NCBI RefSeq assembly: GCF_003336205.1 | Contig: NZ_QPIE01000001.1 | Coordinates: 124,001-188,000, forward strand | Direction: 5' to 3' | Source: Chryseobacterium lacus | GTDB lineage: Bacteria; Bacteroidota; Bacteroidia; Flavobacteriales; Weeksellaceae | Length of the DNA: 64,000 bases | Shown here: one piece after another, positions 2,911 through 8,752 of the stretch | Position numbering within the stretch: position 1 is the stretch's first letter | Layout of the letters: the number at the start of each line of letters is the position of its first letter | Made by a program: the position numbers and the translations under genes | The notes under the pieces: generated by a model | The model's input: only the letters and a program-made list of their open reading frames with translations | What the model was told of the DNA's origin: nothing | Databases searched by the model: none

Positions 2911-3146
2911 TCCTAAATAACCATTACCATCTCGAAAAACTGGGCTATCTTTATATAGAAAATTTCGCATTTCAGCATAACAACTCAGCTGATAACTATG
3001 GCTTAATGCCTATTCTAAACGTAAATATTTTCAGATATTGTTCTTCTTTTAAAGTTAAAAAAATCATCAGCTCTTTAATAGAAATCTACTAATACCCTTA
3101 TTTTAGTATCGCAATGAAGGTTAAAATATGTTTTGCATTATGTTTT

Positions 3147-3178
3147 TTTGCAGAATCGTCATATTTTTCATATCTTTG
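3147..3178 (+). promoter_or_regulatory. promoter of the CsgD-like regulator
   Basis: TTTG at 3147-3150, 20 nt, then TATCTTTG at 3171-3178. This matches the Bacteroidota consensus exactly. It places transcription start near 3184 and so excludes the upstream in-frame ATG at 3133. Confidence 0.75.
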
Positions 3179-3192
3179 TGAAAACACAACAC

Positions 3193-3846
3193 ATGAAAAA
3201 AAACTCATTAACCATTATTGAGACGTCCTCCCTATATGCGGAAACGATGTCGACACTCTTCCTACAGACAGACTTGTTCAAAACTGTAAACATCATTAAT
3301 TATACTGATTCGCTCCTCGATGATGTAAAGCAAAACACTCCCAATTTTCTTATGATAGGGAGTAGTGTTTTTGCACGAACGGAAATCTATGAAATCGTTG
3401 ATTCTATTCTGAAAATTGATCCGAAAATCAAAATCATCATTGTGGGTCAGAATTACGAAGTGCATGTCATCCGTAAACTTTTTTCCAAGGGAATCCGCAG
3501 TTATTTGGATCAGGACAGCAATTATGAAGAATTCCTGAAATGTGTGCAGACGCTGCATCAGGGGAACGTCTATATCTGTGAATCCGCTAAGGAACAGATG
3601 ATCAGTTTTCTCAGTAACGACAACAAAAAATACACCCGTTGCAACAAGGAACCCATTACCAAAAGAGAAATGGAAGTACTAAAACTGGTGTGCGACGGAC
3701 TGAGCAGTAAAGATATTGGGGACAAACTGTTCATCAGTGTGAATACCGTTGAAACCCACCGCAAGCGTATCCTAATGAAACTTAACGTAAAAAACACCGT
3801 GGGTGTGGTAAAATATGCTTTGGAAAATAATATTTTCGAAGACTGA
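3193..3846 (+). CDS. LuxR-family regulator with a degenerate receiver domain, candidate curli regulator
   Basis: 217 aa from the ATG at 3193; the ATG at 3133 lies upstream of the promoter. Residues ~5-125 have the response-regulator fold pattern but lack the catalytic residues. The acidic pair after strand 1 is E-T (residues 10-11), the phosphoacceptor Asp position after strand 3 is Gly56, and the conserved Lys near strand 5 is Gln107. Residues ~150-212 are a standard LuxR/GerE helix-turn-helix (TKREMEVLKLVCDGLSSKDI, then VNTVETHRKRILMKL). Phosphorylation control is therefore unlikely. The gene converges on the curli operon across one shared terminator. E. coli CsgD is likewise a LuxR-type regulator next to csgEFG, so a CsgD-like role is inferred from context and architecture, not shown. 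Confidence 0.85.
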   Translation: MKKNSLTIIETSSLYAETMSTLFLQTDLFKTVNIINYTDSLLDDVKQNTPNFLMIGSSVFARTEIYEIVDSILKIDPKIKIIIVGQNYEVHVIRKLFSKGIRSYLDQDSNYEEFLKCVQTLHQGNVYICESAKEQMISFLSNDNKKYTRCNKEPITKREMEVLKLVCDGLSSKDIGDKLFISVNTVETHRKRILMKLNVKNTVGVVKYALENNIFED

Positions 3847-3997: not shown

Positions 3998-5500
3998 CTA
4001 TTCGAAGTCCGGCATCTCTCCGTTGTTAAAGGCAGGCACACGTAAAAAGTTGGTACCCGAACTGTTCATATTGATAAAAACAATATTTCGGGCAGAGATA
4101 TTATCATTGGAAGTATTCATCAAAATAATCTGTGAATTATCTGGAGAAAATCGGGGATCCAGATCATTAGTTCCCTGAGGTTTAGAACTCTCAACAGAGA
4201 TATCAACACTGGAATTGGTCTGAAAATTATACAAAAACAGCCTGCTGTCCAGCTGACGGTAGCTAGTATCAAGATGTCCGGAAACATCGTAGGTATAGAG
4301 AAGTTTTTGTCCGTCTATCGAAAAATTGAGACCGCCCGCTGCGCCTGTGGCAGCTGTGAAGACATTTTCCACGGTATTTCCAAGCAAATCTATCACAAAT
4401 ATTCTGATATTATACCCATTCACATCATTGGTCTTCAGCGCAATGTGAGCACTGTTGTAACTCCAGTCACATTCGGAAATAAAACTTCCGTCAGGGGTGG
4501 TATACAAAAGTTGTAAACCGGTTCCGTCTTTATTAATCTGGTAGAGTTTATCAAAATGAGTATAAATTAACTTGCTGCCATCGGTATTCCAGGAAAAATC
4601 CAGTTCGCTGTTATGAAATCCCGCCACCGGTGTGGTTGTTACTTTAAAAAGATCAGAACCGTCAGGCTTAACGGTGTAGATATGACTGCCCGAACCTTCA
4701 GTTCTCAAAAAAGCGATACGGTTGGCATTATTATTCTTCCGTGGCCTCCAGCTGTTATGAGTGGGTTGGGTAAGATTAAAACTGTTGCCCTGAAGATCGG
4801 AAGAAACAATATAAAAATTTCCGTTCTGCTTCTTTACATAGTGATACCTATTGGAAGGAGTAGCTGTGGTTGTAAACTTAAAGACAGAACTGAAAACTTC
4901 CGGATGAATACCATCCGACACGGCTACCTGCCAGAAATAACTTGTGCCATAACTCAGATTATCGAGTGTATAAAATTTATCAGAAATATCATTAATGGTG
5001 ATGATGTCGGTATTGACATTATTTTTCACAATCAGTTTATAAGTGAGACTGTCGCTCTTATCCGGGTCTGTAGAATTCCAGCTCAGCTGTACACTAAGCG
5101 GCTGGTCCAAGGCATTATCTATAGGACTGAGCAATTCAGGAGCCGATGGTGGTGAGTTTAGTGACTGATCATCACTGAGTTCAATAATAACGCTGACTTC
5201 CTGACCCGTCTGTATTGTAACCGCCTCATAACTGGTGAGAAATCCATTAAGTTCAGCTTTTACGGAATAATTCCCTGTAGGAATATCTTTAATAACAAAC
5301 ATCCCATCCTTATCTGTAAATAAAGTTTGGGTACTGGGTGCAGTTGAAATCTTTACATTGGCAACAGGTTCATTGCTTCCCTTTTTAACAACTTTTCCTT
5401 TCAATACTCCCTGCTCGGTATGTTCCACAAGATCTTCCGCACAGGAGGATACTGTAAAAAAGAGAAAAAGAAGAGAAAGTATACAAATAATATTTTTCAT
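3998..5500 (-). CDS. curli-operon lipoprotein with regulatory-like, FN3 and beta-propeller regions
   Basis: 500 aa from the ATG at 5500, which follows the csgG stop by 4 nt; an upstream in-frame ATG (5524) would overlap csgG. The signal peptide ends in a lipobox with Cys20 (FTVSSC), so it should be a lipoprotein. Residues ~30-105 look like a carboxypeptidase-regulatory (CarboxypepD_reg) sandwich (LKGKVVKKGSNEPVANVKI, then DGMFVIKDIPTGNYSVKA). Residues ~118-212 are FN3-like (PSAPELLSPIDN, YFWQVAVSDG). Residues ~220-500 contain repeated F-S-x-D-G/N-x-x-x-I/L motifs typical of TolB/PD40 propellers. It is the last gene of the curli operon and has no counterpart in the E. coli csg genes. A role in anchoring or guiding fibres at the cell surface is inference. 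Confidence 0.8.
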   Translation of the reverse strand: MKNIICILSLLFLFFTVSSCAEDLVEHTEQGVLKGKVVKKGSNEPVANVKISTAPSTQTLFTDKDGMFVIKDIPTGNYSVKAELNGFLTSYEAVTIQTGQEVSVIIELSDDQSLNSPPSAPELLSPIDNALDQPLSVQLSWNSTDPDKSDSLTYKLIVKNNVNTDIITINDISDKFYTLDNLSYGTSYFWQVAVSDGIHPEVFSSVFKFTTTATPSNRYHYVKKQNGNFYIVSSDLQGNSFNLTQPTHNSWRPRKNNNANRIAFLRTEGSGSHIYTVKPDGSDLFKVTTTPVAGFHNSELDFSWNTDGSKLIYTHFDKLYQINKDGTGLQLLYTTPDGSFISECDWSYNSAHIALKTNDVNGYNIRIFVIDLLGNTVENVFTAATGAAGGLNFSIDGQKLLYTYDVSGHLDTSYRQLDSRLFLYNFQTNSSVDISVESSKPQGTNDLDPRFSPDNSQIILMNTSNDNISARNIVFINMNSSGTNFLRVPAFNNGEMPDFE

Positions 5501-5504
5501 TTTA

Positions 5505-6872
5505 TTAGTTTTTAATTTTTCCAAAATAATAGTTTATACCAAGGCCAAACCGCAGTGCGTGATCATTGAGTTTACCCTGCACCAAACGATCCCAGTCATC
5601 TGAAAATCCAAGATCATACTGAGTAGATACCCTCATTCCAAAATTATCAGAAATGAGATATTCCAAACCGCCTCCAAACTGGCTCTTATATTTTACTTTC
5701 TGTTTAGAAAAAAGAGCACCTAACCCGGCATACATATAGGGAGAGAGGCGTCTTTGTGGAAGCACAAGATATTCCAGATTAACCTCCCCAACGAGATACC
5801 TCTGTTTCAGTAAATTGCCGTTTTGCATCTGGAAGAAACTGAGGTTGCTTTCTAAATTGAAACTCGAATTCAGAAAATATTTCGCCCCCAGTTTACCTCC
5901 AAATGTTGTGGTGGGATTCACATAGTCTCCTCGCCCCTGTTGAGCCTCCGCTTGTCCAAATACAGAGAAAGGCCGCCTTGTCACAGGATTATCATTACCG
6001 ATCAGACGCTGGGCGCTGTGTTTCTCTTCTGCATTATACGAAGCGATCAGCGATTCATACTTTTCGGGCTGATCCAGTGCTTTACCCCATATTTTACTTT
6101 TTATCCCTTCAATAATAAGAGATTTGACTGCTTTTTCTATCGCATCAGTTACTGCGAGTTGCACAGGTTCATTCTGGGTAACCCCCGCTTCAGCTTCCAG
6201 CAGCTTTTCTGTATCTACATATCGAAAGAAACTACCATTAACACTGGTGGATAAAATCGTTTTCGAGACATATACGGTTTTAAGAATTTCGCCGTTAAGG
6301 GTGGATACCGCTCTGAGGTAAATGGTAATTCTGTCCTGCCGGTATTGTGAGGAGGCTCCAATACCAAAATACCTCGCCCCAACTCCGCCGGTCATTATAT
6401 TACTGTCGTAAGAGATAACTCCTCCTTCCAGCAAAATACCAGCAAACAATAATGGAGGCAATGCAGGGGTATTGGCGTCAGCATCTTTTATATATTCCTG
6501 TTTCGTTGAGCGGATAATCTGTCTTTCATTGAGGAGATTGGAAATATTTTCCCTTTCAATAGGGGTAAACCATTTACTGTCTTCCAGTGCTTTTATCAGG
6601 ATGGTGGTGGTTCCCTGTGGTACTGCTGTACTCCAGTTATTACCATTTTCGGAAGGTTTATACTGACCGGTCTGATCACGGAAGCGATAAACGCCTACAA
6701 CAATTTTCTCCTTAGGAGAAGGCATATTCTTAAGGTCTGAGGTGTAAGGTGTAGATTCACCTATGATAGATTTTTCGGGATTGCCCGGGAGCCCGAATAC
6801 CGGCCCGCAGGCCTGGAAGGTCAGAAGGGCAACGGCACAAAATGCGAGCCGCAGGTGAGTATTGATTTTCAT
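5505..6872 (-). CDS. csgG: CsgG curli secretion channel with C-terminal beta-barrel-like extension
   Basis: 455 aa against about 277 in E. coli. The signal peptide ends at a lipobox with Cys22 (TFQAC). Residues ~40-275 follow E. coli CsgG closely: the GVYRFRDQTGQYKP stretch, STAVPQ, ALEDSKWFTPIER, LLNERQIIR, TGGVGARYFGIGA and the SKTIL segment. CsgG forms the outer-membrane nonameric pore that exports curlin subunits. In the constriction loop the E. coli Y-x3-N-F is replaced; Asn79 is kept and Trp80 stands where E. coli has Phe56. Residues ~300-455 have alternating aromatic/glycine strands and end in Y-Y-F-G, like a small outer-membrane beta-barrel; this domain is absent from E. coli CsgG. 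The start is 6 bp after the csgF stop. Confidence 0.93.
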   Translation of the reverse strand: MKINTHLRLAFCAVALLTFQACGPVFGLPGNPEKSIIGESTPYTSDLKNMPSPKEKIVVGVYRFRDQTGQYKPSENGNNWSTAVPQGTTTILIKALEDSKWFTPIERENISNLLNERQIIRSTKQEYIKDADANTPALPPLLFAGILLEGGVISYDSNIMTGGVGARYFGIGASSQYRQDRITIYLRAVSTLNGEILKTVYVSKTILSTSVNGSFFRYVDTEKLLEAEAGVTQNEPVQLAVTDAIEKAVKSLIIEGIKSKIWGKALDQPEKYESLIASYNAEEKHSAQRLIGNDNPVTRRPFSVFGQAEAQQGRGDYVNPTTTFGGKLGAKYFLNSSFNLESNLSFFQMQNGNLLKQRYLVGEVNLEYLVLPQRRLSPYMYAGLGALFSKQKVKYKSQFGGGLEYLISDNFGMRVSTQYDLGFSDDWDRLVQGKLNDHALRFGLGINYYFGKIKN

Positions 6873-6878
6873 GGTGTT

Positions 6879-7307
6879 TTATTTAGGAATAACGATTTCG
6901 GATTGATCTCCGGTAGAGGTGTCAAGGATACTGATCATCATACCCTGAGCCGTTTCAGTAACCTGCAAATAAATAGAGCCGAAAAGATAGTTTCCCGCCT
7001 CTACGCTTCCACTTCCAAACTGTTCCTGAAATAGCTTCCTGGAAAGCTCACTCAGCACCTGACGGTTAAGACTCTGCGCAAAACTGTCTAAAGAGTTGAT
7101 GCCAGCTCCCTGGGTTTTACTATCGGCGTTATCAAACTGGTTTTGAGCACTGGCTGAACTGAGAAGCCACTGATAATTAAAAGTATCTCCTCCGAAGGCA
7201 GGATTTACGGGTTTATAAACAAACTGCTGTGCACAGAATCCTGCAGTTCCAAACAGGATTAAAACCATCATGGTAATCCCGAGTTTAAGTTTAGTATTGA
7301 AATTCAT
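6879..7307 (-). CDS. csgF: CsgF curli assembly factor
   Basis: 142 aa with an N-terminal signal peptide (cleavage near Ala26). The mature N-terminus QQFVYKPVNPAFGG, followed by WLLSSASAQNQF, matches the E. coli CsgF start (TFQFRNPNFGG, FLLNSAQAQN). In E. coli this segment inserts into the CsgG pore and couples secretion to nucleation at the surface. The gene overlaps csgE by 17 bp and is followed 6 bp later by csgG, so translation is probably coupled. Length and motif order agree with the family. Confidence 0.93.
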   Translation of the reverse strand: MNFNTKLKLGITMMVLILFGTAGFCAQQFVYKPVNPAFGGDTFNYQWLLSSASAQNQFDNADSKTQGAGINSLDSFAQSLNRQVLSELSRKLFQEQFGSGSVEAGNYLFGSIYLQVTETAQGMMISILDTSTGDQSEIVIPK

Positions 7308-8013
7308 TTTTAATTAGTTTTTTTTTGGCATTGTAGTCGTTAATATATCTAAGAGCGATGCCCACCTGTTCCCTTAAGAATTCATCACTGGGATTGGTCA
7401 TAAAGCCATAGATTATTCTGTCGTCTATTTTGATGTTAACCTGCCCGCTGCTTCCTCTGGCCGGCTGCTCTTCGATAGTAACAGCAGAAGCATTGTCCGG
7501 CAATCGATTAAACTCCATGTAGAATATATCATAGAAGTCTTTTCCTACTTTGCTTTTCGTTTCATCTATCGCCAAACCGGAAAGCTCAGAAGATCTTCGG
7601 ATACGGGTTTCCTGCTGTACAGGATTAAACTGAGACTGGTTGATCTCGAGACTGTCTTTACTCAGGAGAGTCTGGTCCTGCTCGTCTCTGATATAGAGGT
7701 ACGCTTTCATAGCGTCTCCCTGCTCCAGATTAATATTGATCTGTGAAAGACCCTTCGTTTCACTTGGTCCAATTGCGAAGCGGCCTCCCTGTTTATTGTT
7801 GGAGAGGTTATTGGTTGCCCCTCCCTTTTTAATTACTATAAGCAAATAATTCAACTCATGGTGAGTGGATGATTGATTGACCGCTATTCCCGTAATCTGA
7901 ATCTGATTTTCCTGTATGGAGTGCTCAATCCTTGCCTTAATTTCATCAAATGACTGAGCCTGTACTGAAAAGCACAGGAATAAAAAGATCAGTATGAAAG
8001 AACGGAAAGTCAT
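7291..8013 (-). CDS. csgE: CsgE with an N-terminal CsgC/CsgH-like domain
   Basis: 240 aa, about twice E. coli CsgE. The signal peptide covers residues 1-20. Residues ~145-238 are the CsgE domain: GLAIDETKSKVGKDFYDIF, TIEEQPARGSSGQVNIKI, IIYGFMTNPSDEF. CsgE is the periplasmic cap that gives CsgG its specificity. Residues ~35-125 are a separate beta-rich domain with QGGRFAIGPSETKGLSQI, then LEQGDAMKAYLYIRD. The Q-x-G-x-F/L-x-L-x-P pattern, the L-S strand and the V/I-R-D strand recall CsgC and CsgH, the periplasmic inhibitors of premature curlin fibrillation. A two-domain fusion of inhibitor and cap is inferred from these patterns. It starts 2 bp after the preceding gene and overlaps csgF. Confidence 0.88.
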   Translation of the reverse strand: MTFRSFILIFLFLCFSVQAQSFDEIKARIEHSIQENQIQITGIAVNQSSTHHELNYLLIVIKKGGATNNLSNNKQGGRFAIGPSETKGLSQININLEQGDAMKAYLYIRDEQDQTLLSKDSLEINQSQFNPVQQETRIRRSSELSGLAIDETKSKVGKDFYDIFYMEFNRLPDNASAVTIEEQPARGSSGQVNIKIDDRIIYGFMTNPSDEFLREQVGIALRYINDYNAKKKLIKNEFQY

Positions 8014-8015
8014 GA

Positions 8016-8414
8016 TTAATAATTTCGGACAAACACCGTTACATTTTCACCTTTTACATTCATCTTAATACCATCAGATATACTGTTTGTACCGGTAAAA
8101 TCCACCGTGTTATTGTAGCCCATAGTGGCAATCGCTGTAGAGGATTTACCCGCCGAATGGGTGTTGTTAAAATATACATTATTTTGTCGGCCATCCTGAC
8201 GCACGGTAACTTCACTCTGTGAAGACATAAGAATAGTAGCATTGTTTTTGTCACCTTGCTGTACAACGACAGAACCGAGAGAGTCAAGACTCATCTGCTG
8301 AAGGTGAAACATGTCGATAGCCACAGTACTGTTGATCTGAGGCCATGCAATCTGCTGGCCTTTGCAGAGCGCAAATACACACAGCATGGGAAGGAATAAA
8401 AGAAATTTTTTCAT
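8016..8414 (-). CDS. small CsgB-like curlin-repeat protein
   Basis: 132 aa from the ATG at 8414, where a good signal peptide begins (KKFLLFLPMLCVFALCKGQ); the upstream in-frame ATG at 8492 adds a poor, charged leader. The mature part has several degenerate curlin-type units: VVVQQGDKNNATI, VRQDGRQNNVYF and ATMGYNNTV, ending in a beta-rich tail (VTVFVRNY). Its size and its position directly before csgE suggest a minor subunit or nucleator like CsgB, or a fibre cap. It is unlike the two large curlins in having few repeats. It is the first gene after the terminator that follows the curlin pair and is probably expressed with csgEFG. Confidence 0.7.
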   Translation of the reverse strand: MKKFLLFLPMLCVFALCKGQQIAWPQINSTVAIDMFHLQQMSLDSLGSVVVQQGDKNNATILMSSQSEVTVRQDGRQNNVYFNNTHSAGKSSTAIATMGYNNTVDFTGTNSISDGIKMNVKGENVTVFVRNY

Positions 8415-8752
8415 GATCATCATTTTTTTTATAAAGGTATCAGATTGATCTTCACTGAGAAACACAAAAATCAGGTATAAATAATTTGTCACTGTAATCA
8501 GTTACTGTTAGTCCCCATGACCTGATATCACGGCGATGCCGGGATACAGTTCTGTCAGTCCTTTCCTGAAGTTTCATTTTACGGCTCTTTAAAACTTTCT
8601 TTGATCAAAAGAAACGAACTGTGATTGCAATGGTTTAACGATAGAAAATCGGATTCTGTTTTTTACCGGTCACTTCAGGTCTGGATATAATAAATTGCGA
8701 CTTTGATGATGTTTTGATATAGATCCCACTTTGTTAAATATACCTTGCGGAA
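8415..8752. other. intergenic region between the curlin genes and csgEFG
   Basis: About 340 bp with no convincing gene; a poor in-frame leader to 8492 was rejected. It follows the terminator of the curlin pair and must hold the promoter or read-through path for the csgB-like/csgEFG unit. The best -7 match on the minus strand is GATTTTTG around 8464-8471, one base off TAnnTTTG, so the promoter is uncertain. Confidence 0.4.

Follow-up and report, generated by a model that had tools for sequence, protein, structure and literature searches.

Can a curli locus that seems to lack both CsgC and CsgH carry such a chaperone inside another of its genes? Dueholm 2012 (PMC3521004), in the part of the paper available to us, counts Bacteroidetes loci as lacking csgC. 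In the accessible portion of a 2023 survey, genomes with CsgC or CsgH are fewer than those with CsgE, and that of a 2025 survey (PMC12822426) places CsgA/B plus CsgEFG, with neither CsgC nor CsgH, among the most frequent curli gene combinations. Since such surveys score loci without CsgC/CsgH, how these bacteria keep curlin soluble is left open. We analyzed a stretch of 64,000 nucleotides from Chryseobacterium lacus (hereafter, the window), in which a single open frame, read on the reverse strand from an ATG at position 8013 to position 7291, encodes a protein of 240 amino acids. The analysis confirmed that a CsgH-like domain and CsgE are encoded together in this one gene, csgH::csgE.

The gene belongs to a curli operon in which curlin genes, csgF and csgG all adjoin it (Table 1). 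A preliminary description of the locus had placed a complete CsgE in the C-terminal half only, and PF10627 is indeed confined to residues 144-233 (E 1.5e-13, 51.3 bits against a cut-off of 25). This half also matches the CsgE NMR structure 2na4 (E 0.0086 as a single sequence, 3.5e-7 as a profile). The absence of a separate csgC or csgH, noted in the same description, holds for the genome at large: scans of the C. lacus assembly (99.96% complete, 31 contigs) with the CsgH and CsgC models at E ≤ 10 returned the fusion gene only, at 15.3 bits for CsgC. Compared with known CsgE (PF10627, 2NA4), the protein is alike in its C-terminal domain, which scores above the Pfam cut-off, and in adjoining csgF and csgG; however, the E. 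coli CsgE model NF007701 has 129 positions, whereas the C. lacus chain has 240 residues and an added domain. The start of the small curlin-like gene in Table 1 was set by eye, at an ATG inside ORF 8016-8492.

Table 1. Coordinates of csgH::csgE, its parts and the neighboring curli genes in the window
Feature	Positions	Strand	Basis and remarks
csgH::csgE fusion gene	7291-8013	-	NF041112 CsgH and PF10627 CsgE in one chain
Probable Sec signal peptide, residues 1-20	7954-8013	-	Hydrophobic N-terminus ending AQ; cleavage placed by eye
CsgC/CsgH-like domain, residues 24-124, limits approximate	7642-7944	-	NF041112; profile matches 2xsk/2y2t and 2n59
Interdomain linker	7585-7641	-	Longest A run 3 (row L051)
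CsgE domain, residues 144-233	7315-7584	-	PF10627, 51.3 bits
csgF	6879-7307	-	PF10614, 125.8 bits; first 17 bases shared with the end of csgH::csgE
csgG, 455 aa	5505-6872	-	PF03783, 225.8 bits
CarboxypepD_reg-type probable lipoprotein, operon end	3998-5524	-	PF13715/PF13620; lipid anchor guessed by eye
Small curlin-like subunit, CsgB-like position	8016-8411	-	PF07012, 18 bits, and NF007470 CsgA, 24.6 bits, both below cut-off
Curlin subunit, 368 aa	8808-9914	-	PF07012, 7 stretches, 78.4 bits
Curlin subunit, 366 aa	9942-11042	-	PF07012, 9 stretches, 98 bits

Several neighboring features may be recorded here. CsgG greatly exceeds the 277-position E. coli model in length, and its match to a C-terminal outer-membrane beta-barrel is weak (PF13505, residues 319-445, 22.1 bits, below the cut-off of 28.7). 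The CarboxypepD_reg lipoprotein has relatives in all 15 curli loci tested, with only 132-141 residues matched in L091 and L092, and is likely an uncharacterized curli component of Bacteroidota. A LuxR-type regulator with a weak receiver domain and a CsgD-like layout (3133-3846, forward strand) adjoins the operon, and 8 of the 15 loci have a match to it. The match spans most of the regulator in L049, L096 and L101, 124-130 residues of its C-terminal part in L095, L097, L098 and L100, and 50 residues in L090. Finally, an in-frame A9 run lies near the CsgE C-terminus of the window gene (7318-7326, reverse strand), with an A10 at about the same place in L050, from the same genus.

The identity of the N-terminal half rests on profile comparison. 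The CsgH model NF041112 matched residues 27-114 (E 1.1e-9, 38.2 bits against a cut-off of 35) over model positions 2-85 of 91, and scored 39.9 bits when the N-terminal segment of 131 residues was searched alone; the CsgC model NF007507 gave a weak match to the same segment (15.7 bits, far under its cut-off of 75). When 12 fusions were scanned singly at E ≤ 0.01, NF041112 matched 11 and the CsgC model 8. The CsgC/CsgH resemblance that the preliminary description had inferred is therefore borne out by clear profile similarity to both families, and the motifs that it named are present (QGGRFAIGP at residues 75-83, LSQINI at 89-94 and YLYIRD at 105-110).

We then compared profiles with known structures. 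A profile built from 11 fused N-terminal domains of the order (A2) retrieved CsgC structures from the PDB (E 3.3e-6 and 4e-6), followed by noise from 0.17 upward; the CsgH structure 2n59 was absent among the best 60 of 95 matches at E ≤ 10. A mixed profile of nine domains, six of these fused ones (that of the window included) and three stand-alone CsgH, searched against 177,635 PDB sequences, matched 2xsk (1.1e-7), 2y2t (1.4e-7) and 2n59 (1.6e-6), and nothing but CsgC/CsgH structures at E ≤ 0.2. Thus 2n59 was matched only after stand-alone CsgH had joined the profile. Direct profile-profile alignment of the fused N-terminal domains with the three stand-alone CsgH of distant Bacteroidota by hhalign gave a probability of 98.2 and an E of 4e-14. 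Sequence comparison thus shows both halves to be homologous to their namesakes, CsgC/CsgH-type and CsgE, respectively.

The domain is nevertheless neither CsgC nor CsgH in the usual sense. According to the accessible part of Taylor 2016 (PMC4838910), a CxC motif denotes CsgC and a distant cysteine pair CsgH. The mature N-terminal domain of the window protein has no cysteine in its sequence and does not meet this pattern, and in the family only 4 of 103 genes have any cysteine in the N-terminal domain. In the same source, as far as available, the C37S substitution had little effect on CsgC potency (PMC4838910). Because the diagnostic cysteines are missing, we speak of a CsgC/CsgH-superfamily domain. 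It resembles alphaproteobacterial CsgH (PDB 2N59, NF041112) in its above-cut-off profile match and its place in a curli operon, but that CsgH stands alone and has cysteines, whereas the C. lacus domain lacks them and is joined to CsgE. It resembles enterobacterial CsgC (2XSK, 2Y2T, 2Y2Y), which is the best PDB match of the N-domain profiles, with collinear alignment; unlike this stand-alone protein, it falls short of the CsgC model and lacks CxC.

CsgC and CsgH act through charge-driven transient contacts, and R40, K57, K60 and K74 are important basic residues of CsgC, according to the available text of the same paper (PMC4838910). Among these positions, only K57 aligns with a basic residue in the window protein (K74), in a column that varies among relatives. 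The CsgC numbering in this alignment is presumptive. The window domain has a net charge of -2 to -3 and a pI of 5.5-5.9, against 4.2-4.4 for the two large curlins. The criterion for CsgC/CsgH chaperones being a pI about 2 units above that of the curlin subunit, the domain lies 1.1 to 1.7 units over the two large curlins and under the small curlin-like protein (6.05). N-terminal domains across the family have a median pI of 8.78 (103 genes; the relatives' curlins were not included). As calculated from sequence, charge supports a charge-driven contact with curlin for the family, and less so for the window protein.

What might a protein of this composition do? In E. coli, as far as the accessible parts of the sources go, CsgE caps CsgG in a 9:9 complex (PMC5135000), CsgC and CsgE both inhibit CsgA fibrillation in vitro (PMC5135000), and inhibition requires CsgE at about 1:1 while CsgC acts down to 1:1000 (PMC5135000, PMC4838910). 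By analogy, csgH::csgE would encode a two-domain periplasmic curli protein, with an anti-nucleation chaperone domain in its N-terminal half and a nonameric CsgG cap and substrate adaptor in its C-terminal half, the latter role being inferred for C. lacus. Since CsgE oligomerizes on CsgG, about nine CsgH domains would be displayed in a ring at the channel mouth, where, we infer, unfolded curlin may be prevented from nucleating and also passed on to the pore. That the N-terminal domain keeps curlin soluble is itself an inference, with no fibrillation or expression data behind it.

The fusion is not special to the C. lacus genome. We found CsgE in 29 of 296 genomes of the phylum. In the order of C. 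lacus, all 11 CsgE-bearing genomes, from families f1 and f2, have a CsgH-like domain in the CsgE frame. Ten of these were recognized by NF041112 and G130 by alignment only, at 27% identity to the window domain; the match of G130 to A2 is not independent, because its N-terminal domain was part of that profile. A family sample gave full-length profile matches in 106 of 246 genomes (101 in one frame, 4 in two frames and 1 cut by a contig end). A sample of the order gave 55 matches in 395 genomes, of which 49 have both halves in one frame and 5 have them in two; the remaining one, G559 (L238), from a third family, has CsgE in a frame of 232 codons with no detectable CsgH domain. The CsgH-CsgE fusion is thus usual in the two families sampled and, because of G559, not universal in the order. 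Searching genome contigs with the single protein returned one locus, 96% identical, in a Chryseobacterium metagenome-assembled genome. We found no relatives in viral contigs, and a stand-alone CsgH query against plasmids gave three weak Sphingobium matches.

Other N-terminal parts are found on CsgE elsewhere in the phylum. In distant Bacteroidota (L003, L004, L006 and L008-L012), a LysM-like segment occupies the place of CsgH; of the three tested, Pfam LysM scored above cut-off in L003 and L010 and below it in L008, the others being recognized by eye only. This segment may anchor CsgE to peptidoglycan. L014 (G037) and L028 (G158) have long N-terminal extensions; CsgE was the only Pfam match above cut-off in either, and the G158 extension had nothing above cut-off in NCBIfam. 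They are possibly highly diverged CsgH or another domain.

Separate csgH genes suggest how the fusion may have arisen. In G166, G195 and G231, csgH lies 4.6-6.6 kb from csgE, in the order csgE-F-G, curlins, csgH, lipoprotein. In all three loci, it follows curlin-like genes and precedes the same lipoprotein gene as in the window (gene names and order were assigned by eye, the lipoprotein by tblastn). In the window, the curlin genes come before csgH::csgE-F-G-lipoprotein. We infer a rearrangement from an order with csgH after the curlins and away from csgE to one with curlins directly upstream of csgEFG, although the direction of change is itself an inference. Joining the curlin-csgH end to csgEFG would bring csgH beside csgE, so that in-frame fusion would be a small step. 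Rearrangement followed by fusion is thus the probable, if inferred, origin of csgH::csgE.

In 46 relatives from three genera and two families, the two halves of the gene, CsgH and CsgE, do not share a frame (loci L095-L098, L226-L228 and L242-L280). Two genera of the C. lacus family have the gene in 4 of 9 genomes, split in all four; the other 42 belong to genus g4 of the second family, 41 of them among 93 genomes with the gene in a 398-genome sample, plus G689 from the order sample. Every split gene has an A run at the domain junction (A10 in 44, A9 in one, A12 in one), followed by G in 44 and by C in two. CsgE is in the -1 frame in 45 of the 46, the A12 case (L280) needing the opposite shift, and the CsgH frame stops within 0-4 codons of the run in 45 genes and after 10 in one. 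Most runs end in an in-phase A AAA AAG, a site of the type found in E. coli dnaX. Away from the junction, the sequences coding for the domains have only 6 runs of A9 or longer in 61,395 bases (102 genes), 2 of them in split genes. Among in-frame g4 genes, 6 of the 32 read, which are not all of those met, keep A10 or A11 at the junction. The 12 in-frame rows out of 57 with runs of at least 9 are not a frequency, because 21 family genes in this comparison were hand-picked and include six with A9-A10. One gene, that of G697, was entered twice (L211 and L229) in the tree and the counts, so that 33, 57 and 103 rows correspond to 32, 56 and 102 genes. The window gene itself has no junction run and is in one frame throughout.

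Substitution patterns indicate that the CsgE part of split genes is under purifying selection. In g4, its median pN/pS is 0.082 in split genes (175 pairs) and 0.091 in unbroken ones (34 pairs), and that of the N-terminal part is 0.13 and 0.16, respectively; medians were taken over pairs with pS of 0.1-0.6 only, out of 861 split and 496 in-frame pairs. In the C. lacus family, G305 and G347 differ in their CsgE parts by a pS of 0.746 and a pN of 0.176. Judged from the run in all 46 and the g4 ratios, the relatives thus have a slippery run that is conserved, with protein-like evolution in both of the frames that it separates. A midpoint-rooted tree built on both domains, each of them short, places split genes at four or more distinct points: L095; the group L096-L098 (support 1.00); L262, sister to the unbroken L298 (0.99); and a large g4 clade whose basal support is weak (0.69). 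Parsimony requires 7 changes between the split and in-frame states, against a mean of 33.9 for shuffled labels.

Halves in different frames at A9-A12, together with purifying selection on CsgE, suggest slippage. Long A runs yield two length variants by transcriptional slippage in Thermus thermophilus dnaX (A9; PMC1088944) and Citrobacter rodentium tssM1 (A11; PMC4256274), and some AT-rich genomes seem to suppress slippage (PMC1088944), according to the accessible portions of these papers. As far as those portions show, the csg relatives are alike in having a long A run after which one frame soon stops and another leads to a longer product (PMC1088944, PMC4256274); unlike dnaX and tssM1, they carry the run where the two domains of a curli chaperone gene meet, in 46 genomes and without expression data. 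The likeness applies to the relatives, not to the window gene. By transcriptional or ribosomal slippage, the split relatives probably make CsgH alone in addition to CsgH-CsgE, a reading for which no RNA or protein data exist. The A run would then set the ratio of free to cap-bound chaperone. For the order as a whole, we find it quite plausible, and favor the view, that a single gene repeatedly gained about A10 at the junction, giving free CsgH and tethered CsgH-CsgE in a ratio fixed by the run, while the genus of C. lacus and many others are locked in the fused state.

Three additional candidates were rejected or not supported. Downstream RNA folding as a stimulus to slippage was dismissed for the junctions examined, since in all three tested, out of 46, folding was no better than in shuffled sequences (z -0.29, 1.33 and 1.06). 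Selected A runs in in-frame linkers were rejected on lysine codon usage, AAA accounting for 200 of 268 at the junction and 1749 of 2142 elsewhere (85 of 100 in-frame family genes, where the junction was located). A separate CsgE frame with its own start and signal was likewise rejected, as 31 of the 46 genes, or 32 with a slightly different core boundary, lack an ATG, GTG or TTG start codon ahead of the CsgE core; the leader of such a frame would have at most 30 codons. Some linkers, however, reach a peak hydropathy (2.3) within the range of true leaders (minimum 1.84, median 2.62), so that hydropathy by itself does not rule a signal of their own in or out.

A split csgE might of course be a frameshifted pseudogene, or its A10 an error of sequencing or assembly, with no dual product. 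Long A runs are hot spots for mutation and sequencing alike, no RNA or protein evidence of two products exists, and this reading can also draw on the three junctions without stimulatory structure, the lack of AAA enrichment in the linkers of in-frame family genes and the opposite shift required by L280. However, decay or error would not be expected to leave all 46 breaks at A9 or longer at the domain junction, 44 of them at A10, nor a g4 CsgE as constrained past the break as in unbroken genes. Other runs of at least A9 inside long frames are unbroken in 6 of 6 placeable cases (24 of 30 were not placeable; three genomes), and in-frame A10 and A11 junction runs also occur. We consider this reading improbable and retain slippage for the split relatives.

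The N-terminal domain invites two further doubts, one about its ancestry and one about its activity. Its match could reflect chance or a generic beta-sandwich resemblance without homology to CsgC/CsgH. Indeed, a single-sequence phmmer search of the PDB retrieved only CsgE, for the CsgE half, and one unrelated chain, leaving the N-terminal half without a CsgC/CsgH match. AlphaFold2 models, made to look for the seven-strand immunoglobulin-like sandwich of CsgC and CsgH, were of low confidence (mean pLDDT 45.0 for the full chain, from the input and one 96% identical relative, and 50.9 for the N-terminal domain alone, from at most two near-identical sequences), and Foldseek with the full-chain model gave no match at E ≤ 0.001 and no CsgC/CsgH in the best 50 of 981 matches at E ≤ 10. 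Yet NF041112 exceeds its curated cut-off, the mixed profile is restricted to CsgC/CsgH structures, and in a six-frame scan of the 296 genomes with the CsgH model all 13 matches of at least 27 bits sit in curli loci (10 in the CsgE frame and 3 less than 7 kb from csgE), the other five among the matches listed scoring at most 23 bits. Chance resemblance, already disfavored, is scarcely credible. A descendant of CsgH could also have lost its anti-amyloid activity and serve as a mere structural or docking extension of CsgE, reaching curlin or CsgG, for example. Most of the basic residues that matter in CsgC are not conserved, the window domain is net negative, and the unrelated parts (LysM) on some other Bacteroidota CsgE suggest that CsgE may benefit from an N-terminal extension as such. 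On the other hand, CsgC/CsgH similarity persists over two families, the N-terminal part is under purifying selection in g4, and 46 relatives have a frame layout that would release CsgH alone, which makes most sense if the domain works alone. The fused domain may have lost its inhibitor activity, but we think it unlikely. The explanation that we prefer, and hold with good confidence as a whole, remains that of a CsgC/CsgH-type chaperone domain joined by rearrangement and fusion to a CsgE cap ring, with slippage in relatives.

We found no published description of a CsgH-CsgE fusion or of slippage in csg genes in a literature search that covered mainly titles and abstract openings, most subscription papers being outside its scope. 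Taylor 2016 mentions a Bacteroidetes CsgH subfamily and, in its accessible part, no fusion (PMC4838910); the words 'fusion' and 'fused' are absent from the main texts of PMC4838910 and PMC3521004. We infer a risk that annotation mistakes split genes for a broken csgE.

How curlin is kept soluble may thus have an answer in the two families sampled, where the fused CsgH domain suggests that the chaperone is present but hidden inside CsgE. A natural fusion of this kind also suggests a shared place of action on the same curlin for CsgC/H and CsgE, and it offers a ready-made single protein for structural work. If the recurrent A10 seam of the relatives works, slippage would acquire a new role there, that of apportioning an amyloid chaperone to a free and a channel-bound form.
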